From positions 1-7,024 of the forward strand of contig CAAGFH010000101.1 of assembly GCA_900769095.1 (NCBI GenBank): a stretch of DNA of 7,024 nt, in the 5' to 3' direction. A program made the position numbers and the translations under genes. Positions 1 to 7,024 of the stretch are shown here, piece by piece. The stretch is from Methanobacteriaceae archaeon. GTDB lineage: Archaea; Methanobacteriota; Methanobacteria; Methanobacteriales; Methanobacteriaceae. Numbering within the stretch: position 1 is the stretch's first letter; the number at the start of each line of letters is the position of its first letter. Under the pieces are notes generated by a model. The model worked only from the letters and a program-made list of their open reading frames with translations, ran no database searches and was not told the origin of the DNA.

Positions 1-62
1 TGGCGCTGCAGTTCTTCTTTTTCCTCTAAAAGCGCCCTGATCTGCACAAGTTCTTCACTTCG
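1..62 (-). other. GC-rich foreign-looking contig end, open on minus strand
   Basis: This segment is about 47-50% GC, whereas the DNA after it is strongly AT-rich. On the minus strand it reads open throughout (the frame continues to about base 98), giving a charged, helix-like stretch containing SEELVQIRALLEEKEELQR. On the plus strand, the spt4 frame runs into a stop at 27-29 with no start codon between that stop and the recognisable Spt4 sequence, so spt4 cannot begin here. The sequence change therefore interrupts spt4. I do not recognise the minus-strand peptide. Most likely this is an assembly or library chimera at a contig edge; a genuine recombination joint is the alternative. The exact joint lies somewhere between about 60 and 86. 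Confidence 0.5.
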
Positions 63-185
63 TGTGGAAAGCCAGCTTCCTACATCTGGAGTGGACTTTT
101 AATTATTACTGATCCTAGTGAATCTACTGTTGCTCGTGAATTAAATATTGATGTTGCGGGTGAATACTGTTTAAGAGTAAGATAG
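63..185 (+). CDS. spt4: Transcription elongation factor Spt4 (RpoE''), C-terminal part only
   Basis: Archaeal Spt4 is a small (about 60-residue) zinc protein that pairs with Spt5 (NusG-like) and keeps RNA polymerase processive. The codons from 87 to the TAG at 183-185 read W-S-G-L-L-I-I-T-D-P-S-E-S and end in GEYCLRVR, matching the usual Spt4 ending (WxGLLIIxDPxxSxIAxxL...GxYALxVR). Upstream codons 63-86 read C-G-K-P-A-S-Y-I, which puts a cysteine at the right spacing before the Trp for the second zinc CxxC, but the expected C-P pair before it is absent and the base composition is foreign there. The N-terminal zinc half is therefore missing, lost at the joint described for bases 1-62. The position directly before the dephospho-CoA kinase and rps24e genes is the usual archaeal order and supports the call. 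Confidence 0.8.
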   Translation, partial: CGKPASYIWSGLLIITDPSESTVARELNIDVAGEYCLRVR

Positions 186-195
186 AGGTTTTATT

Positions 196-702
196 GTGTT
201 ACGTTTAGATACAGAAAATAAAGATATAATTTGTGAACTTAAAAGACCTTTAGGTAAATTATATCCTGACTTTGAAGATGCTATTGATGAGATTAAATCT
301 TCTGAGTTTTTGATTTCTGTTGGTGATGCAACTTTTGGCAATCTTACTAAATATGAATTATATCCTAATATAGGTATAATTGATAATGTAATTCAGAGAA
401 AAACTCATGCTCATGAAATTATACGTGCAGATCACATTTTAAAAGCGAATAATCCTGCTGGAACTATTACAGATGATCTATGGGAAACCATAGGCCAAGC
501 TCTTGAATTATCTAACTCCGGCGAATGTTATGTAATTGAAGTAGCAGGGGAAGAAGATCTTGCAGTTCTTCCTTGCATCTTAATGGCTCAACCAGAAACT
601 ACCATATTATATGGTCAGCCAAATGAAGGTTTAGTGCTTTTAAAAGTTTCTGATTTAAAAGATAAAGCTCAAAAGCTTATTGATGGATTTATTAAAGAAT
701 AA
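196..702 (+). CDS. GTP-dependent dephospho-CoA kinase (DUF359 family)
   Basis: This 168-residue protein belongs to the archaeal DUF359 family, whose Thermococcus member TK1697 was shown to phosphorylate the 3'-OH of dephospho-CoA with GTP, the last step of CoA synthesis; it is unrelated to bacterial CoaE. Family landmarks are all present: KRPLGKLYP (16-24), SVGD (41-44), the NPAGTITDDLW block (86-96), VAGEEDLAVLP (116-126, with the acidic EED probably at the active site) and LYGQPNEGLVLLKV (138-151). Length is normal. The start is GTG: GAGGT at 185-189 overlaps the spt4 stop codon and stands 6 bases before it, and there is no better upstream start. The gene lies between spt4 and rps24e, as in many archaea, and is probably cotranscribed with them. 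It is cytosolic, with no membrane segment or signal peptide. Confidence 0.92.
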   Translation: MLRLDTENKDIICELKRPLGKLYPDFEDAIDEIKSSEFLISVGDATFGNLTKYELYPNIGIIDNVIQRKTHAHEIIRADHILKANNPAGTITDDLWETIGQALELSNSGECYVIEVAGEEDLAVLPCILMAQPETTILYGQPNEGLVLLKVSDLKDKAQKLIDGFIKE

Positions 703-720
703 ATTGAATGAGGTTTTATT

Positions 721-1035
721 ATGGAAATCGAATTTATTGAAGAAAAAGAAAATAAATTATTTAACAGAAAAGAAATTAAATTTTACGTTGATTACGACGG
801 AGAAGCAACTCCTAAAATCTTAGATATCAAATCTAAATTAGTTGCTTTATTAAATACTAAAAAAGAATTACTTGTAGTTGACAATGTACAACCTCACTAC
901 GGTGAACCTAAAGCATTAGGTTATGCTAAAGTTTACGAAACTGTAGATGACTTAAAATACATTGAAACTAATCACGTATTAGCTAAAAACGAAGAACCTG
1001 AAGAACCTGCTGAAGATGCAGAAGATGAAGAATAG
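721..1035 (+). CDS. rps24e: Small ribosomal subunit protein eS24
   Basis: This 104-residue protein is the archaeal/eukaryotic small-subunit protein eS24. The core spans residues 1-90: an N-terminal strand region with NRKEIKFYVDYDGEATP (15-31), a helix with KSKLVALLNTKKELLVV (37-53), and the family hallmark YG..KALGYAKVY (60-72). The last 15 residues form a very acidic tail (NEEPEEPAEDAEDEE), a common archaeal extension with no expected fold. Codon choice (TAC, CAC, AAC, CCT) is biased as in highly expressed genes. The ATG follows a TGAGGT ribosome binding site at 708-713, 18 bases after the kinase gene, so the two are almost certainly one transcript. Confidence 0.95.
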   Translation: MEIEFIEEKENKLFNRKEIKFYVDYDGEATPKILDIKSKLVALLNTKKELLVVDNVQPHYGEPKALGYAKVYETVDDLKYIETNHVLAKNEEPEEPAEDAEDEE

Positions 1036-1044
1036 GTGATTTGA

Positions 1045-1197
1045 ATGGTAAAAAAATCTGATCTTTACAAAGTAGATGGCGACAAAATTGAAAGAAAAAA
1101 CCCAATTTGTCCTCGTTGTGGTGAAGGTGTATTCATGGCTAATCACGGCGACAGATTCGCTTGTGGTAAATGCGGATACACTGAAATGAAAAAATAA
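1045..1197 (+). CDS. rps27ae: Small ribosomal subunit protein eS31 (S27Ae), zinc ribbon
   Basis: This 50-residue gene starts at ATG 1045 and ends with TAA at 1195-1197. It reads [10 protein letters not shown] at the start, then CPRCG (22-26) and CGKCG (40-44), a Cys4 zinc ribbon with a CxxC...CxxC layout, with the basic N-terminus typical of archaeal S27Ae (eukaryotes fuse this protein to ubiquitin). Length and motif spacing are normal for the family. The ribosome binding site AGGTGAT (1034-1040) overlaps the TAG stop of rps24e, which implies translational coupling. It is the last gene of the cluster and is followed at once by a T-rich terminator. Confidence 0.95.
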
Positions 1198-1231
1198 GAT
1201 TTTTAAAATCTTTATTTTCTTTTTTTTATTT
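1196..1231 (+). terminator. T-rich terminator after rps27ae
   Basis: The rps27ae stop codon runs into AAGATTTT (1196-1203), one T, then AAAATCTT (1205-1212), a near-perfect inverted repeat. This is followed by TATTTTCTTTTTTTT and more T-rich DNA to about 1240. Archaeal RNA polymerase terminates on U-rich tracts, so this is a likely end of the spt4-rps27ae transcript. The stem is AT-only and may contribute little. Confidence 0.6.
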
Positions 1232-1277
1232 ATTTTTACTTTTAATTTATTTTAATCATTTTTAAGAAGGGATTCTT

Positions 1278-2699
1278 TTGGATAATATTAGAAATGGTCG
1301 TTTTAAAACTGGAATGACTGATGAAGCTACCTTGTATACTTCATCACTTGAAGCAGATAAACTTCTTTTTGAAGCGGATATTAAAACTAATTTTGCTCAT
1401 ACTTCAATGTTAAAACATGAAGGAATTGTTGATGAGGAAATTGCAGATAAAATTTTATGTGCTCTTGATTCTCTTAAACAAGAAGGTTATGATGCATTAG
1501 TATTTGACCATTCTGTTGAAGATGTTCACATGGCTATTGAAAATTATGTTACTTCTAAAATCGGCCCTGATGCTGGTTTTATGCACACTGCAAAGTCCCG
1601 TAATGACCAAGTAGCTTGTGATGTAAGATTGGTTTTAAGAGAAGAAATTATCAATATTCAAATTGGTATTTTAGAATTTATGGAAGGTCTTGTTGAAATG
1701 GCAGGAAATCACATGGAAGATGTATTCATTGGATTTACTCACTTACAACATGCTCAACCAATTACTATTGCACATCATTTAATGGCACATGTTCAAGCTC
1801 TTAAAAGAGACTATGAACGTTTAGCTGACACTTATAAACGTGTTAACTTAAACCCTTTAGGCTCTGCTGCAATGGCAACTACCAGTTTTCCAATTAACAG
1901 ACAATTAACAACTGATTTACTTGGTTTTGATGCATACTTGGAAAACTCAATGGACGGTGTCTCTGCAAGAGATTTCATTGCTGAGAGTGTTTTTGACTTT
2001 GTATCATTATGTACTACTTTATCTAAAATCTGTGAAGAATTGGTTTTATGGAGTACCTATGAATTTGGTGTTATTGAAATGGCAGATGAATATTCATCAA
2101 CTTCTTCTATTATGCCTCAAAAGAAAAACCCTGACGTTGCAGAGCTTGCAAGAGGTAAATGTGCAATCGTTAACGGTGAATTGGTCACTATTTTAACCAT
2201 ATTAAAAGCAATTGCTTATACTTATAACAGAGATTTACAAGAAATCACTCCACATTTATGGAATTCCATTAAAGTAACTAAAGAAACTTTATCTATTGTT
2301 ACTAAAATGTTATTGTCTGTTGAATTTAAAACTGAAAGATGTGCTGAGCTTGCAGGTAAAAACTTCGCTACTGCAACTGATTTAGCAGATATTATGGTTC
2401 GTGAAAAACAAATTCCTTTCAGAACTGCTCATAAAATTGTTGGAAGAATTGTAAATGAAGCTACTGCTAAAGACATGGCTGAAGAAGACATTACTTCTAA
2501 ATTCATTGATGAAATTGCAGTTGAATTAGGATTTAGCGAATTAAACTTATCTGATGAGTTAATTCAAAGAGCTTTAAACCCTGTTGAAAACGTAAGAATT
2601 AGAGCAGTTCCTGGTGGTCCTGCACCGGAAATGGTTGAAATTGCACGTGATAATATTAAAGACTTTTTAAATGTTGAATTTGAAAAGCTTGGGATTTAA
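1278..2699 (+). CDS. argH: Argininosuccinate lyase
   Basis: This enzyme splits argininosuccinate into arginine and fumarate, the last step of arginine synthesis, as a cytosolic homotetramer of the fumarase/aspartase superfamily. The 473 residues match the usual length of 460-490. Visible landmarks are the NGRF start region (6-9), KSRNDQ substrate loop (106-111), THLQHAQP (154-161, with His155 in the position of the catalytic-pair His162 of duck delta-crystallin) and the superfamily signature [10 protein letters not shown] (276-285, with Ser276 as the likely catalytic serine of the mobile loop and Lys282). The C-terminal RAVPGGPAP segment is also typical. Start is TTG, chosen because the GRF motif lies just after it and AAGGGAT (1267-1273) lies 4 bases before it; the next ATG (1314) would delete conserved sequence. 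It is a separate unit from the ribosomal genes and has its own palindromic terminator. Confidence 0.96.
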
Positions 2700-2720
2700 T
2701 TAAATCCCTATATTTTTTTA
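2691..2720 (+). terminator. Palindromic terminator containing the argH stop codon
   Basis: Bases 2691-2708 form a perfect 18-base palindrome: GGGATTT, AATT, AAATCCC. The last two codons of argH and its TAA stop are part of it. The tract that follows holds a run of seven T (2713-2719). A 7-bp stem plus U-run resembles a bacterial intrinsic terminator, though archaeal termination depends mainly on the U-tract. Confidence 0.7.
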
Positions 2721-2830
2721 TTTTACAGAATTTCATATTTTTTGGAATTTAAATACTTTTTTTTTAAGCTTTTAAATATTGTTGAATAGTTTAGTTTTAT
2801 GTTTTTGTGTTAATGTGCACTTCCAAAGTA

Positions 2831-2838
2831 TTTATATT
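2831..2838 (+). promoter_or_regulatory. TATA box for the first MNT gene
   Basis: TTTATATT lies 53 bases before the MNT start codon, preceded by an A-rich possible BRE (CCAAAGTA). Transcription would begin near 2857. The second MNT gene has TTTATTATT at the same distance, and TGTG sits exactly 17 bases before each box (2814 and 5005), so the promoter appears to have been duplicated with the gene. Confidence 0.6.
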
Positions 2839-2883
2839 AAAGATATTAATAATATTTTATTAACTAATACTTTTGGTGATTAG

Positions 2884-3189
2884 ATGAATAATAGATTGGA
2901 GATTGCTCGTGAGTTTGCAGATGCTATAAATTCTGATAAAATCATTAAAATAATTGTTTTTGGTTCTGTGGCTCGTGGGGATGATCATGATGATTCAGAT
3001 ATTGATATTTTAATATTATCTAATCAAAGAGAAAATATTGAGCAAGTCGTTGATGATGAAATTGCTCGTATTATGTATGACAAGCAGGAATTGATTTCTG
3101 CTCATATAATGGATGAAGAATTTTTCAATCAAACAAAGAATTTCTCATTTTTAAGTTCTGTATTAAAAGAGGGTGTTGTCATTGGATGA
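2884..3189 (+). CDS. MNT-family minimal nucleotidyltransferase (antitoxin-like), copy 1
   Basis: This 101-residue protein has the minimal nucleotidyltransferase fold of the DNA polymerase beta superfamily. The signature GSVARG (27-32) followed by DSDIDILI (37-44) gives the nucleotide-binding GS and the metal-binding Asp39 and Asp41; Glu69 in YDKQEL is a tentative third carboxylate. Such proteins, paired with a HEPN RNase, act as antitoxins; in MntA-HepT-type pairs the MNT protein AMPylates the HEPN toxin. The start is ATG with GGTGAT at 2875-2880, 3 bases upstream, the same as in the second copy. Its end overlaps the start of the HEPN gene by 8 bases, so the pair was translationally coupled. 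The gene is intact while the HEPN partner is frameshifted. Substrate is unknown; assignment to an antitoxin role rests on context. Confidence 0.88.
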   Translation: MNNRLEIAREFADAINSDKIIKIIVFGSVARGDDHDDSDIDILILSNQRENIEQVVDDEIARIMYDKQELISAHIMDEEFFNQTKNFSFLSSVLKEGVVIG

Positions 3190-3555
3190 TGAGATTTGTT
3201 CTTTCATTGATAAAGCTGAAACTAAATTAAAAAATAGTAAAGTTTTATTTGAAGTTGGAGGATATTCTGATTCTGTTTCTTTATCATATTATTGTATGTT
3301 TTTATGTGCTAAGGCATTATTAGTTAAGAAGAATTGTAAAATTCCAAAATCTCATCGGGGTCTTATACAGTTGTTTAGTCTAAATATGTTCATGAAGATG
3401 ATTTTAATTATAATGCTTATAATTATTTATCTAGTTCTCAATCGGATAGAGAATCTGCAGATTATGGCGCAAGGGATAATATTGATGAGAGAATTGCAAA
3501 AAGAAGAATTAATCATGCTGAAGAATTCTTAAAAGAAGCTAAAAAATTTTTATAA
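3182..3555 (+). pseudogene. HEPN-domain protein, copy 1, frameshifted near 3384
   Basis: The frame from TTG 3182 reads a PF05168-type HEPN protein (SYYCMFLCAKALLVKK at 35-50, KSHRG at 56-60) up to codon 67, after which it degenerates into hydrophobic nonsense ending at 3532. Skipping back one base, the frame from 3385 continues the homology (YVHEDDFNYN..., RESADY, HAEEFLKEAKKFL) to TAA 3553-3555. Against copy 2 (TTA-AAG-TAT) the bases CTA-AA-TAT lack exactly one A. Repaired, the protein is about 124 residues and 69 positions match copy 2. Start TTG is preferred because GAGGGTG (3169-3175) lies 6 bases upstream; GTG 3173 falls within that site. The canonical HEPN Rx4-6H motif is not evident; both copies have R-x4-Y (R90-Y95). 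It could be a true pseudogene or a base-calling error. Confidence 0.82.
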
Positions 3556-3557
3556 TC

Positions 3558-3565
3558 TTTTTTTT
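3558..3565 (+). terminator. T8 tract after HEPN copy 1
   Basis: A run of eight T directly follows the HEPN stop codon and is preceded by an A6-T5 stretch (3541-3551) at the end of the gene. It is a plausible U-tract terminator for the first MNT/HEPN unit. Confidence 0.5.
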
Positions 3566-3608
3566 ATAAGTATTTCTAATTTGATAATATGTTTAAAATT
3601 TATTATTA

Positions 3609-3626
3609 ATTTAGGTATTCCTAAAT
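3609..3626. repeat. Inverted repeat abutting a TATA box
   Basis: ATTTAGG (3609-3615), TATT, CCTAAAT (3620-3626) form a perfect 7-bp inverted repeat with a 4-base spacer. It ends one base before the TATA box at 3628-3635, so it covers the BRE/upstream position and could be an operator for a dimeric regulator of the predicted small RNA. No T-tract follows it on either strand, which argues against a terminator. Confidence 0.4.
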
Positions 3627-3627
3627 A

Positions 3628-3635
3628 TTTATATA
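3628..3635 (+). promoter_or_regulatory. Consensus TATA box for a predicted small transcript
   Basis: TTTATATA is the best match to the archaeal TATA consensus in the window. No annotated plus-strand gene follows; transcription would begin about 25 bases on, near 3655-3660, exactly where the hairpin-forming segment begins. Confidence 0.5.
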
Positions 3636-3656
3636 CTTATTTTAATAAACTATTAA

Positions 3657-3735
3657 TGGGATGATGTTTCATTATCTCTTGGATGGGGATATTAATAGAA
3701 TACCGATTATTTGGTAGTGCTCAGCTTCTATTTTT
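3657..3735 (+). ncRNA. Predicted small structured RNA of unknown class
   Basis: This gap between convergent genes has about 39% GC, well above the surrounding spacer. Two helices are visible. The first pairs 3658-3666 (GGGATGATG) with 3670-3678 (CATTATCTC): nine pairs, two of them G-U, around a UUU loop. The second pairs 3694-3700 (AATAGAA) with 3726-3732 (TTCTATT) and encloses a 6-bp hairpin, TACCGA (3701-3706) with TTGGTA (3711-3716), leaving a GTGCTCAGC bulge. A TATA box lies at the right distance upstream and T-rich DNA follows (3730-3750). No C/D-box or H/ACA layout could be fitted. Alternatives: a nearly leaderless 18-codon peptide from ATG 3661 to TAG 3715, or a 3'-UTR structure of the opposing minus-strand operon. 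Confidence 0.35.
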
Positions 3736-3739
3736 ATCT

Positions 3740-3916
3740 CTATTCTTCTTTAATTGATTCTAAATAGCTTTCACGGATTTCTTCAGCCATTTCATCATTA
3801 CCTTCAATAATGGGCCCGGTATAATCACACTCATAACAAACCCATTGAGACCAGTTTTGAGGTATAATCCATTTTACTTTTCTTGATCCGCATCTTGGAC
3901 ATATTTTATGCATCAT
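3740..3916 (-). CDS. Small zinc-ribbon protein, function unknown
   Basis: This 58-residue protein begins with two Met codons (3916 and 3913) and ends at TAG 3740-3742. It has CPRC (6-9) and CYEC (27-30), a Cys4 zinc ribbon of the C-x2-C-x17-C-x2-C type, with three tryptophans (16, 22, 25) between the pairs and an acidic helical tail (EGNDEMAEEIRESYLESIKEE, 37-57). The start lies 4 bases after the stop of the PP-loop gene, with no clear ribosome binding site, so it is likely translated by coupling and shares that gene's promoter. I do not recognise a named family; nucleic-acid or protein binding through the ribbon is an inference. Partnership with the PP-loop ATPase is suggested only by the operon. 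Confidence 0.8.
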   Translation of the reverse strand: MMHKICPRCGSRKVKWIIPQNWSQWVCYECDYTGPIIEGNDEMAEEIRESYLESIKEE

Positions 3917-3920
3917 AGTA

Positions 3921-4937
3921 TCAAATCTTATAAAAGCTCCATATTAAATCTAGTGCTTCACCAGGTTCTAATGCGCCTGAACGGGTTTCCCTAAGGATTC
4001 TTTGTATTGAGAATTTCTTCATGTGTGGGAATTTCCTGTGAACTTCATAAAGCAGTGGACAACCGAAACCTTTGAATGTGCTTAAATCATATTTTCTGAT
4101 TAAGGATTTTATCTCTTGTTTGCCTGTGCTTAAACTTGCTGGAAGGTTCAAGCGATATAATGAATCCTCTTGTAAATTTATGCATTGGCTACCAGTTGCA
4201 AGCATATCACCAAAGATAATTATTGGGATTTCTTTTGATTTTGCATATTCTTTTACAAGCTCACCAGTATTTTTTGAACATCTCCCACATGGGTGAACAT
4301 TTCCTGTAAATGATTCTTCTACAACATCAGAATAATCAGTTTTAATATATTCGTGAGATACATCTAATGCAGAGCATAATTTTTCAATATTGTTTTTAAA
4401 CTGTTTTGGAAGTATTATTGTTCCAGGATCAACAGTAACAGCAATAGGATTAAAACCAAGTTTTTTAGCTAAAATTAATGAAAAACTACTGTCAACACCA
4501 CCGGAAAGTGCAACAACTGCTTCTGTATTTTGTGCTTTTTCAAATTCATTTTCATTTAGATAATTTTCGAAGTTAAAACTGTAAATATTGGCCAATTTAT
4601 CTTCAATAGCTTGTTGTAAATTTTTAAGCCCAATTAAATCGGAATTTAAATTATTAATGGTCTTTTTTGACAATTTTAATTTGTAGTTTTTGTTTAAAAA
4701 ATCACCGTAAGACTCAACATGGATACTTTCAAGACCTAATTTTTCTCTAAGTTTTCCAACAACCCATCCACCTTTTCCAATAATTGCGGATTTATCAGGT
4801 CTGTCTTCGGTAATAATCCATAATTCATTGGTTGTTTCGTTAAAATAAAGCTCTTCGATAAATATGTTTACTTTATCGTGGCCAATTTCATCTCTTATGG
4901 TATTAACTTCTTTTAAAATGAATTCTTTTGTATACAT
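3921..4937 (-). CDS. KH-domain PP-loop ATPase, probable RNA-modifying enzyme
   Basis: This 338-residue protein has two parts. Residues about 40-80 contain DKSAIIGKGGWVVGKLREKLG, whose GKGG (54-57) is the GxxG loop of a KH RNA-binding domain. After a linker, residues about 138-338 form an adenine-nucleotide alpha-hydrolase domain with the PP-loop SGGVDSS (145-151), a following VDPGT strand end (169-173) and FGDMLATG (242-249). PP-loop enzymes adenylate a substrate, often a tRNA base for thiolation or lysidine formation. HPCGRC (215-220) plus Cys252 and Cys293 (GCPLL) recall the CxxC + C cluster ligands of TtcA/TtuA-type thiolases, by analogy only. QueC- or TilS-like chemistry is possible, so no gene symbol is given. 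The gene heads a minus-strand operon with the zinc-ribbon gene and is divergent from the second MNT gene. No clear ribosome binding site precedes the ATG. Confidence 0.85.
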   Translation of the reverse strand: MYTKEFILKEVNTIRDEIGHDKVNIFIEELYFNETTNELWIITEDRPDKSAIIGKGGWVVGKLREKLGLESIHVESYGDFLNKNYKLKLSKKTINNLNSDLIGLKNLQQAIEDKLANIYSFNFENYLNENEFEKAQNTEAVVALSGGVDSSFSLILAKKLGFNPIAVTVDPGTIILPKQFKNNIEKLCSALDVSHEYIKTDYSDVVEESFTGNVHPCGRCSKNTGELVKEYAKSKEIPIIIFGDMLATGSQCINLQEDSLYRLNLPASLSTGKQEIKSLIRKYDLSTFKGFGCPLLYEVHRKFPHMKKFSIQRILRETRSGALEPGEALDLIWSFYKI

Positions 4938-4987
4938 TATTTTTAAATATTAACTAAGTCATTTAATTAGTTTTCTACATGGGGGAA

Positions 4988-4997
4988 TTATATTTTT
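4988..4997 (-). promoter_or_regulatory. TATA box for the PP-loop operon
   Basis: Read on the minus strand this is AAAAATATAA, about 55 bases before the PP-loop start codon, similar to the distance in both MNT promoters. It would give a leader of about 30 bases. It lies back to back with the TATA box of the second MNT gene in a 138-base divergent spacer. Confidence 0.4.
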
Positions 4998-5021
4998 TCA
5001 CATTTGTGTAGTTGGCAAATA

Positions 5022-5030
5022 TTTATTATT
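5022..5030 (+). promoter_or_regulatory. TATA box for the second MNT gene
   Basis: TTTATTATT preceded by GGCAAATA lies about 53 bases before ATG 5076, matching the geometry of the first copy. A second AT-rich candidate (TTTATTATTA, 5044-5053) is too near the start codon to leave room for the GGTGAT site in the leader. Confidence 0.5.
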
Positions 5031-5075
5031 AATGAGGCTGAAATTTATTATTATCTTTCTAATCGGTGATTATTT

Positions 5076-5378
5076 ATGAATAATAGAATAGAAGTTGCTC
5101 GTGAGTTTGCAGAAGCTATTAATTGTGACAAAATTGAAAAAATCATATTATTTGGTTCTGTTGCTCGTGGTGATGATTATGAAGATTCAGATATTGATAT
5201 TTTAATTGTTTCTAATTATCGTGATGAAATTTGGTCTAAAATTGCTGATGAAATTGCATGGTTTGTCTATGATAAACAAGAAGTAGTTTCAGCTCATGTA
5301 ATTAGTGAAGATCAGTTTAATTCAACAAGAGACCATTCTTTTTTAACTAATGTTTTAAATGATGGTGTTGTAATATGA
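5076..5378 (+). CDS. MNT-family minimal nucleotidyltransferase (antitoxin-like), copy 2
   Basis: This 100-residue paralogue of the gene at 2884 keeps every catalytic landmark: GSVARG (27-32), DSDIDILI (37-44) with Asp39 and Asp41, and YDKQEV (65-70). The two proteins match at 65 of 100 positions without gaps; they differ most at residues 51-57 and 75-87, which may be partner-contact surfaces. ATG 5076 follows GGTGAT (5065-5070) by 5 bases. Its TGA overlaps the ATG of the HEPN gene as ATGA (5375-5378), a textbook coupled pair. As in copy 1, this nucleotidyltransferase is intact while its HEPN partner is broken. The antitoxin role is inferred from the pairing; the transferred nucleotide is unknown. 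Confidence 0.88.
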   Translation: MNNRIEVAREFAEAINCDKIEKIILFGSVARGDDYEDSDIDILIVSNYRDEIWSKIADEIAWFVYDKQEVVSAHVISEDQFNSTRDHSFLTNVLNDGVVI

Positions 5379-5752
5379 CTAGTGAAGTTGAAAATTTTAT
5401 TAAAAAAGCTGAAGACAAACTAATATCTAGTAAAATATTATATGATGCGGACCAGTAGGCTACAAGTGTTAGTGCATCGTATTACTGTATGTTTCTTGCT
5501 GCAAAGGCATTATTAATTAAGAAAGGTTGTAATGTAGGAAAGAATCATGTTGGATTAATTAAACAATTTAGTTTAAAGTATGTTAAAGAAGACATTTTTG
5601 ATTATAATATTTATAAATTCCTTGCAGAGACACAATCTATAAGAGAAGAAGCAGATTATAGTGATATTGATACTATTACTGGAAGTGTTGCTTTAAATAA
5701 AATAAATCAGGCTGAACTATTTTTAATTGAATCTAAAAAATTTTTAGATTAA
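5375..5752 (+). pseudogene. HEPN-domain protein, copy 2, interrupted by amber codon at 5456
   Basis: The frame from ATG 5375 reads MTSEVENFIKKAEDKL and continues to TAA 5750-5752, but codon 28 (5456-5458) is TAG. In copy 1 the aligned residue is Tyr28 (TAT), so one base change explains the stop. The rest is good PF05168-type HEPN sequence: SYYCMFLAAKALLIKK (35-50), KNHVG (56-60), FSLKYVKED (65-73), REEADY (90-95), QAELFLIESKKFLD at the end. Repaired, it would have 125 residues. Restart at ATG 5489 would give 87 residues lacking the first helix, and no ribosome binding site precedes it. TAG is an ordinary stop elsewhere here (spt4, rps24e, zinc-ribbon gene), so readthrough is unlikely. Confidence 0.82.
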
Positions 5753-5760
5753 CTATGCTC

Positions 5761-5776
5761 TTTTTTCATTTTTTAT
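5761..5776 (+). terminator. T-rich tract after HEPN copy 2
   Basis: TTTTTTCATTTTTTAT begins 8 bases after the HEPN stop, and a further T8 lies at 5819-5826. Both fit archaeal U-tract termination of the second MNT/HEPN unit. The remainder of the 5753-5980 spacer shows only the downstream promoter. Confidence 0.45.
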
Positions 5777-5876
5777 ATGATCTTAATATGTTAAAAATTA
5801 TTACGGAGTATTTTTCGCTTTTTTTTAATTGATGTTTTTTATAAGATTATTCAAAAAAAGGATATTGAAAATATAG

Positions 5877-5885
5877 TATATAAAA
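5877..5885 (+). promoter_or_regulatory. TATA box for the aldo/keto reductase gene
   Basis: TATATAAAA preceded by A-rich DNA predicts a start near 5903 and a leader of about 75 bases. A second match, TTTATATG at 5952-5959, would start transcription at about the ATG itself and leave the GAGGG site (5970-5974) out of the transcript, so it is less favoured. Confidence 0.45.
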
Positions 5886-5980
5886 TAATATAAACTTTTT
5901 AGTGGATATAGGTCATTTTTCAATAAATTCTTTTATCATAATTAATAAAAATTTATATGAGATATTTTTGAGGGAATTTA

Positions 5981-7024
5981 ATGGAATATAAAAAATTAGG
6001 AAACACAGGAATTGAAGTATCAAAAATAGCTTTTGGTGCTGAGTATATGGTTGAAAGGCCTTATGAAGATAGTGAAGCTTTAATTAAGGCTTGTGAGGAA
6101 AATGGGATTAATTTTGTTGACTGCTGGATGAGTGAACCTGATGTACGCTCACACCTTGGAAAAGCAATAGTTCCTAATCGTGATTTTTGGGTTATCCAGG
6201 GTCATATCGGTGCTACATGGCAAAACAACCAGTATGTTAAATCACGTGATATGGATAAGGTAATTCCTGCTTTTGAAGACTTTATGCAAAGATTTCAAAT
6301 AGATACTCTTGATTTTGGAATGATTCATTATGTTGATCAAATTGATGATTATAATGAAATTATGAACGGTCCTTTTATGGAGTATGTTCGCAAATTAAAA
6401 CAAGAAGGAACAATTAAACACATTGGACTTAGTACTCACAATCCTGATATTGGTATTCTAGCTGCTAAAAACCCTGAAATTGAATCAATAATGTTTTCTA
6501 TGAATCCTGCTTTTGATATGTTCGGTACAATGGAGGATATTTGGGAATATAGAAAAGAGGGTGTTTTTGATGATGATAGTTTATCTTCCATTAATCCTAA
6601 AAGAGTAGAACTTTATGAATTGTGTGAAAAAACTGGTACTGCTCTAACAGCAATGAAAGGATTTGCCGGTGGTAATTTATTAAGTGATGAAATATCTCCA
6701 TTTGGTGTTGCATTAACTCCTATTCAATGTATTCATTATGCTTTAGAACAAAAAGGAGTCTCCAGTATCTTTGTTGGTGTTGATAATGTTAGTGAACTTG
6801 AGGATTCTATAAAATACTGTGATGCAACAGATGATGAAAAAGATTATACTCATGTGTTAAAAAACGCTCCTAAACATTCATTTGAAGGTCAGTGTACTTA
6901 TTGTGGACACTGTGCTCCTTGTTCTTCTCAAATTAACATTGCAATGGCGATTAAATTCTATGATCTTGCAAAAAATCATGATGAGGTTCCTGAAAGTATC
7001 AAACAACATTATTCAGATTTAAAA
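5981..7024 (+). CDS. Aldo/keto reductase family protein with 4Fe-4S motif, 3' end cut off
   Basis: The reading frame is open for 348 codons to the window edge. It is an aldo/keto reductase TIM barrel of the kind with an added iron-sulfur tail (COG1453-like). It begins with the family opening MEYKKLGNTGIEVSKIAFGAE (1-21) and has NFVDCW (44-49), TLDFGMIHYVD (109-119), IKHIGLSTHNP (145-155) and GVSSIFVGVDNVSELEDS (259-276), then C-x2-C-x2-C-x2-C at Cys305, 308, 311 and 314. Of the classical catalytic tetrad, Asp47 and His116 are seen; the Tyr is missing after Asp47 (W-M-S-E-P) and the Lys position reads Gln73 or nearby (VIQGHIG). A redox enzyme is likely, but substrate and cofactor cannot be read. 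ATG follows GAGGG (5970-5974) by 6 bases. Usual family length (about 370-390) implies little is missing. Confidence 0.88.
   Translation, partial: MEYKKLGNTGIEVSKIAFGAEYMVERPYEDSEALIKACEENGINFVDCWMSEPDVRSHLGKAIVPNRDFWVIQGHIGATWQNNQYVKSRDMDKVIPAFEDFMQRFQIDTLDFGMIHYVDQIDDYNEIMNGPFMEYVRKLKQEGTIKHIGLSTHNPDIGILAAKNPEIESIMFSMNPAFDMFGTMEDIWEYRKEGVFDDDSLSSINPKRVELYELCEKTGTALTAMKGFAGGNLLSDEISPFGVALTPIQCIHYALEQKGVSSIFVGVDNVSELEDSIKYCDATDDEKDYTHVLKNAPKHSFEGQCTYCGHCAPCSSQINIAMAIKFYDLAKNHDEVPESIKQHYSDLK

Follow-up and report, generated by a model that had tools for sequence, protein, structure and literature searches.

One-sided damage to HEPN genes in predicted Class II HEPN/MNT modules of Methanobacteriaceae

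Paired genes for HEPN proteins and MNT-type nucleotidyltransferases were divided in 2020 into two classes, of which Class II is the more prevalent in archaea (PMC7641770). The Class II HEPN protein was described as having no RX4H RNase motif and as keeping a conserved tyrosine, its MNT partner as keeping the GSX10DXD motif, and the four pairs assayed for toxicity in that part of the study all belonged to Class I (PMC7641770). Adenylylation of the HEPN tyrosine by MNT has been demonstrated in print for the Class I pair MntA/HepT. HEPN was first proposed to be a substrate-binding subunit of MNT; the same source cites a genome-wide screen in which HEPN was the toxin, its class unstated, and describes a HEPN-T family (type member AF0298) in which aspartate replaces the motif histidine and another histidine is conserved (PMC3710099). 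In the open literature (subscription journals lay outside the search) we found no toxicity test of a Class II HEPN, nor one in HEPN or toxin–antitoxin work on the genus or species studied here. Decay of the toxin gene is on record for the chromosomal ccdO157 and hok-sok modules of Escherichia coli (PMC2654758, PMC7167474). Here we describe two MNT/HEPN modules in a stretch of 7,024 nt from a Methanobacteriaceae archaeon, a gut methanogen (GCA_900769095.1, contig CAAGFH010000101.1, positions 1–7,024; hereafter the window), in each of which the MNT open reading frame (ORF) is open and the HEPN ORF broken, and we follow this pattern through the genus and family.

In both modules the MNT gene comes first and runs with an overlap of a few bases into the HEPN gene (Table 1). 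The products of MNT1 and MNT2 match PF01909 (E 4.9e-12, 46.5 bits, and E 6.1e-10, 39.8 bits, respectively; cut-off 21). HEPN1 falls into two pieces that match consecutive parts of the PF05168 profile, yet lie in different reading frames: nucleotides 3182–3382 match profile positions 4–61 (E 2.1e-13, 50.9 bits; cut-off 22), and nucleotides 3385–3552 match positions 76–115 (E 0.0093, by itself under the cut-off). In HEPN2 the piece downstream of an in-frame TAG matches positions 27–111 (E 4.1e-10, 40.3 bits; cut-off 22). The ORFs and family matches thus confirm what a sequence-only reading of the window had proposed, namely that both HEPN genes are broken by different lesions beside intact MNT genes, and that apart from these lesions each HEPN frame is clean to its proper end.

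In order to place the lesions we aligned the window to the nearest genome used for comparison, G001, with which it shares 99.47% identity over an alignment of 6964 bases. The window HEPN1 has one base fewer than G001 near 3381–3384 (a run of AAA vs AAAA), in agreement with the one-base deletion that had been proposed near 3384; this lesion rests on one assembly together with the protein cluster of that allele (P0062, three member sequences). The HEPN2 TAG is also present in G001, and had been read as a change from Tyr28, which fits the tyrosine found at the stop position in all 32 rows of an alignment of relatives (A1). In G001 the HEPN1 frame is kept and carries a TGA of its own at codon 26 (3257–3259); at this position the window codon is a sense codon and the residue in relatives is E, G, K or Q. 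One lesion being shared by a related genome, and that genome having a nonsense codon of its own as well, it is unlikely that the lesions are sequencing errors; the two HEPN lesions are real and partly independent. A third HEPN1 lesion in the species is suggested at the protein level by cluster P0063, which departs from the frame near codon 59 and has glycine at codon 26, and by P0052, which resembles the second half of an allele of this kind. Over HEPN1 and HEPN2 together, the window and G001 differ by one nonsense change, one indel, three missense changes and zero synonymous changes, whereas MNT1 and MNT2 together differ by a single synonymous change; these differences are too few for a dN/dS value within the species.

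Table 1. Features of the window and their coordinates
Feature	Coordinates	Strand	Description
MNT1	2884–3189	+	101 aa; putative antitoxin (nucleotidyltransferase), ORF intact; has GSX10DXD; one synonymous difference from G001
HEPN1	3182–3555	+	Putative toxin gene (Class II); start TTG, inside the 3′ end of MNT1; frameshift near 3381–3384
One-base loss in HEPN1	3381–3384	+	From alignment to G001
MNT2	5076–5378	+	100 aa; intact; GSX10DXD present; identical in G001
HEPN2	5375–5752	+	Putative toxin gene (Class II); start ATG, overlapping the stop codon of MNT2; in-frame stop at codon 28
TAG in HEPN2	5456–5458	+	Common to window and G001
Small zinc-ribbon-like gene	3740–3916	−	Core block between modules; outside both modules
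PP-loop (QueC-like) gene	3921–4937	−	Core block; outside both modules
argH	1278–2699		Presumed name
Aldo-keto-reductase-like gene	5981 onward		Presumed name

G001 carries four modules, two of them syntenic with those of the window. Of the remaining two, one (L033, on contig C3) has a HEPN gene whose frame is lost and then regained with a stop between, and the other (L032, on contig C4) has an intact HEPN. HEPN is therefore broken in three of the four modules of this genome and MNT is open in all four; in the rest of the genus, 7 of 50 scorable pairs have a disrupted HEPN (Fisher P 0.017). That the losses are recent, as the sequence-only reading had supposed, is supported by HEPN1 itself, which downstream of codon 26 gives dN/dS values of 0.056–0.189 against four relatives (0.123–0.285 for MNT1). 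Such low values indicate that HEPN1 was, on this codon evidence, a working gene under purifying selection until recently.

To establish how widely the pattern extends, the 67 genomes of the genus set were searched with MNT1, the HEPN protein P0003 and PF05168, and profiles made from the open copies were run over all six frames of the loci, which were classed by fixed rules. Beside 61 intact MNTs, HEPN was intact in 44 cases, disrupted in 10, absent in three, stopped in the tail in two and cut by a contig edge in two; these figures are used instead of an earlier count of the same number by eye (43 intact, 11 disrupted, five unclear, two absent). From the family outside the genus we took 52 regions from 18 genomes, plus 14 regions chosen after searching the same genomes for HEPN. 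The former held 48 intact MNTs, with HEPN intact in 23, disrupted in 17 (including L192, cut at about a third of its length), absent in six, stopped in the tail in one and at a contig edge in one; the latter added nine intact MNTs, with HEPN intact in six and disrupted in three. Finally, a complete Methanosphaera plasmid, pNP174 (NZ_CP118754.2; L167, L168), has four modules in which every MNT is open and two HEPNs are intact and two disrupted. Altogether, 122 intact MNTs stand beside 75 intact, 32 disrupted and nine absent HEPNs, three with a tail stop and three at a contig edge.

One-sided damage thus fell on HEPN alone at 32 loci and on MNT alone at one across genus, family and pNP174, a proportion (32/33) with a probability of 8e-8 under an equal lesion rate per base; counted once per genome it is 19/20 (P 1.2e-4). 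The single reverse case, with HEPN intact and MNT in pieces, is L146 in the genus (G014:C41), the HEPN motif of which reads RENASY and not ADY; none was found among the loci of the second set. Both genes are broken at L142 in the genus and at L207, L208, L221 and L226 outside it. Fragmented assembly is not the cause, because lesions also occur in assemblies of one to two contigs (G138, G141) and in half of the modules of the complete plasmid. These counts extend to the family the earlier suggestion of independent hits on HEPN with MNT retained, and support the view that a predicted toxin has been disarmed and its antitoxin kept far beyond the window. Excluded from the counts were contig-end or partial MNTs or HEPNs with no clear partner (L102, L143, L144, L145, L147, L148, L215, L222), HEPN fragments with no MNT (L149, L230–L233), the five loci with both genes broken, weak HEPN matches in the genus (e.g. 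G068:C3, G003:C75, G008:C2, G067:C54, G029:C63) and, in the wider family, MNT matches of lower score (all but a few of those listed below ~85 bits, plus unlisted ones). At one locus (L211, G149:C84) two divergent MNT genes lie back to back; the HEPN of one is disrupted, and the other has no HEPN.

As the pairs combine a PF05168 HEPN with an adjoining PF01909 MNT, have GSX10DXD in both window MNTs and conserve a HEPN tyrosine with no RX4H at that site, they are, as predicted from sequence, Class II modules. Over 32 relatives H58, D94 and Y95 (P0003 numbering) are invariant and R90 nearly so, and the D94 and Y95 positions lie downstream of the lesion in both window HEPNs. Some R-x4-6-H occurs in 9/56 long HEPN stretches, at residues 21–26 or 45, away from the D94 Y95 site. 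The Class II modules described in PMC7641770 share the Pfam pair, the upstream MNT, GSX10DXD, the conserved tyrosine, the lack of RX4H and the frequency in archaea; they were described whole, whereas in the present modules MNT is kept beside a broken HEPN. Class I HepT/MntA (type VII) of Shewanella and Legionella has the same fold, two-gene layout and MNT catalytic motif, but its HEPN belongs to PF01934/PF08780 and bears RX4HXY, which is absent from the PF05168 proteins studied here (PMC7641770; PMC11586414). In fold, the predicted structure of P0003 (pLDDT 94.6) is closest to AF0298 (2hsb; TM 0.90), and it bears some likeness to the HepT of the MntA/HepT pair (7bxo_D; TM 0.69). With AF0298 it shares the aspartate in place of the motif histidine and the other conserved histidine (PMC3710099), although AF0298 is an intact gene product and the window HEPNs are broken. 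The closest solved sequences for both partners are the HEPN and nucleotidyltransferase chains of PDB 9xbd/9xbc, a relation drawn by sequence alone; at the conserved DY, the HEPN chains of 9xbc and 9xbd differ by a Tyr-to-Phe exchange, which suggests that this tyrosine was tested by someone.

The two modules flank a block of core genes, the PP-loop gene having some match in 67/67 genomes of the genus. At 13 PP-loop loci of other species, argH adjoins the PP-loop gene with no MNT or HEPN match between them (13/13); on the other flank the aldo-keto reductase gene is visible in 5/13, likewise with neither, and the remaining 8/13 have no match to either within the visible ~0.9–1.5 kb. Given a core block free of modules in all 13, those of the window appear to be two lineage-specific insertions, one on either side of it. 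In an MNT tree of 63 rows, built on few columns and with many weak forks, MNT1 clusters with sequences of G082 and G014 (support 98/92) and MNT2 lies elsewhere. On tree and synteny together we reject a recent duplication, so that the duplicated locus of the sequence-only reading gives way to two older paralogues, each at a site where the other species have no module. Two scans of viral contigs gave no relative. Amongst plasmid records, two have MNT1 relatives (both Methanosphaera ISO3-F5) and eight have HEPN relatives, namely the same two and six cyanobacterial ones at 26–36% identity; some relatives of gut methanogens carry such modules on a plasmid.

Elsewhere in the window, 14 of the 15 differences from G001 in the presumed argH fall within 94 bases (2513–2606), a likely recombination patch. 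The alignment to G001 begins at position 63, leaving 1–62 with no match there, and 1–100 have no match in E. coli; positions 1–62 look like foreign or chimeric sequence at the contig end.

MNT genes left without a working partner (hereafter orphans) allow the fate of the antitoxin to be followed. GSX10DXD is present in 117/122 intact MNTs; the five without it (one, L106, has an unreadable residue at the motif) all belong to the 41 MNTs beside a disrupted or absent HEPN, against 0/75 beside an intact HEPN (P 0.005). Since MNTs lacking the motif occur only next to a broken or missing HEPN, the motif is kept wherever HEPN lives. Five HEPN remnants with at least three in-frame stops adjoin open MNTs that keep the motif, and at G141:C1:1032004 an intact MNT lies beside a HEPN with ten stops. 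Most comparisons of orphan MNTs with relatives give dN/dS of 0.05–0.29, values that include evolution before HEPN was lost, and two orphans without HEPN sit on long branches of the MNT tree (L125, 0.52; L137, 0.28). With the motif kept in 36/41 orphans and these low ratios, it is likely that selection retains the orphan MNT in some cases.

The reading that we consider probable is that HEPN, the likely toxin, can be lost without harm, whilst losing MNT, the likely antitoxin, first would be deadly. Two predicted Class II modules would have arrived by transfer on either side of a block of core genes in a chromosome of the Methanobrevibacter type. An intact MNT would adenylylate its HEPN at the conserved C-terminal tyrosine (Tyr95) by means of GSX10DXD, as by analogy with Class I, and free HEPN would harm the cell, presumably by attacking RNA. 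Ordinary nonsense and indel mutations would then disarm the modules, after which the orphan MNT may linger, or may be kept since it would still neutralize related HEPNs from sister modules or incoming plasmids. In this respect ccdO157 and hok-sok, with the anti-addiction model, offer a parallel, in that the toxin is lost, the locus lingers and a kept antitoxin may protect against related toxins (PMC2654758, PMC7167474); they concern other protein families in bacteria, whereas here one-sided damage has been counted across an archaeal family.

Several points weigh against this reading. Toxicity, binding and adenylylation are predictions for these proteins, the harm done by HEPN and the protection given by MNT being argued by analogy with Class I, and an RNase action of Class II HEPN is a guess because there is no RX4H at the usual place. 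The same asymmetry would arise if, on grounds that have nothing to do with toxicity, the cell simply depended more on MNT than on HEPN. L146 is an exception to the pattern; L150 and L151 are HEPN-like ORFs with no adjoining MNT, possibly of another HEPN family; with all three counted as contrary, the proportion is 32/35 (P 3.5e-6), and because loci are not wholly independent all such probabilities are guides. The HEPNs were once under purifying selection like their MNTs (demonstrated for HEPN1), and were therefore once useful or at least costly to lose. Lastly, full-length cluster proteins exist for both HEPN1 (P0001) and HEPN2 (P0066–P0069), and the alternative-code origin that we give them below is an interpretation.

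The best-surviving alternative, to which we give appreciable weight though somewhat less than an even chance, is that these are simply dying selfish modules, in which the toxin is hit first as the only survivable loss and the orphan MNT, no longer selected, will follow. The toxin decay seen in E. coli, the five loci with both genes broken, and the orphans without the motif or on long branches all suit this. Set against it are the excess of open-frame orphan MNTs over loci with both genes broken (41 to 5), the several orphans beside many-stop HEPNs, and dN/dS below 0.3 in most orphan comparisons, although the time before the loss is included in these values. A bolder extension of our main reading, which we offer tentatively and regard as rather doubtful, is that Methanobacteriaceae convert selfish Class II modules into immunity genes, HEPN being repeatedly knocked out and the orphan MNT being retained as an enzyme that adenylylates, and so disarms, HEPNs from sister modules and incoming plasmids.

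Less likely again is that MNT serves the cell in its own right, with HEPN a dispensable substrate-binding or regulatory partner that decays without any toxin being involved. The role first proposed for HEPN (PMC3710099), the absence of RX4H from Class II (PMC7641770) and the persistence of MNT beside heavily decayed HEPNs would agree with this. However, GSX10DXD has been lost in orphans only, which links the catalytic site to the presence of an intact HEPN, and the position of MNT 5′ of HEPN with an overlap is the antitoxin-first order. Moreover, an MNT match occurs in 37/67 genomes of the genus, and most of the genus members without one live well, which argues against a general role.

It is very improbable that a full HEPN is still made at times through recoding, pyrrolysine readthrough or phase variation, the last of which had been put forward in the sequence-only reading. 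Each HEPN frame is indeed open apart from its lesion, and full-length proteins occur amongst the 13 HEPN clusters of the species (HEPN1: P0001, P0005, P0052, P0062, P0063, P0064; HEPN2: P0066–P0070, P0073, P0093, with P0064 and P0093 placed in the species by their matching parts). Eight of the 13 are shortened or frame-changing; the five full-length clusters have a residue exactly where the gene has its stop, Trp for the TGA of G001 (P0001) and Gln for the TAG (P0066–P0069), and apart from that position and the start residue P0066 is identical to the HEPN2 of the window and P0001 to the HEPN1 of G001. Genetic code 4 reads TGA as Trp and code 15 reads TAG as Gln. As these are precisely the residues found, the five are most simply explained as gene-caller products under alternative codes, and not as intact alleles. 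More broadly, P0001, P0064, P0066–P0069 and P0093 all show Trp or Gln at the species' stop positions and are likely to be alternative-code calls that hide pseudogenes. The MNT1 clusters (P0095–P0100) are all of 101 aa amongst the best 120 of 311 matches, where a stub far below ~60 residues could escape. Nothing in G001 exceeded the cut-off for PylS (best 41.7 bits vs 178.15), two intact genes of the window terminate in TAG and three in TGA, and the same gene carries different lesions in different strains. No long simple repeat or homopolymer marks a switch, the runs being of three or four A only and the HEPN2 and G001 HEPN1 lesions being nonsense codons, and on these grounds phase variation, pyrrolysine insertion and readthrough were all rejected. 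Equally hard to credit are sequencing or assembly errors: in the window, HEPN1 differs by just one base within a short run of A, but the HEPN2 TAG stands in two genomes and is consistent with clusters P0066–P0070 and P0073, HEPN1 of G001 is broken at a different site, and errors would strike MNT as often as HEPN, not 32 to 1.

The study that defined the classes left the action of Class II HEPN untested (PMC7641770), and the pattern of decay indicates which partner is the dangerous one. This one-sided decay suggests, as natural genetic evidence and not as proof, that the Class II HEPN is the harmful partner. It amounts to a natural experiment over many species, in which orphan MNTs, broken HEPNs and intact modules co-occur in the same genomes. 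If it is true that orphan MNTs protect against related toxins, they would form an enzyme-based anti-addiction layer in gut methanogens.

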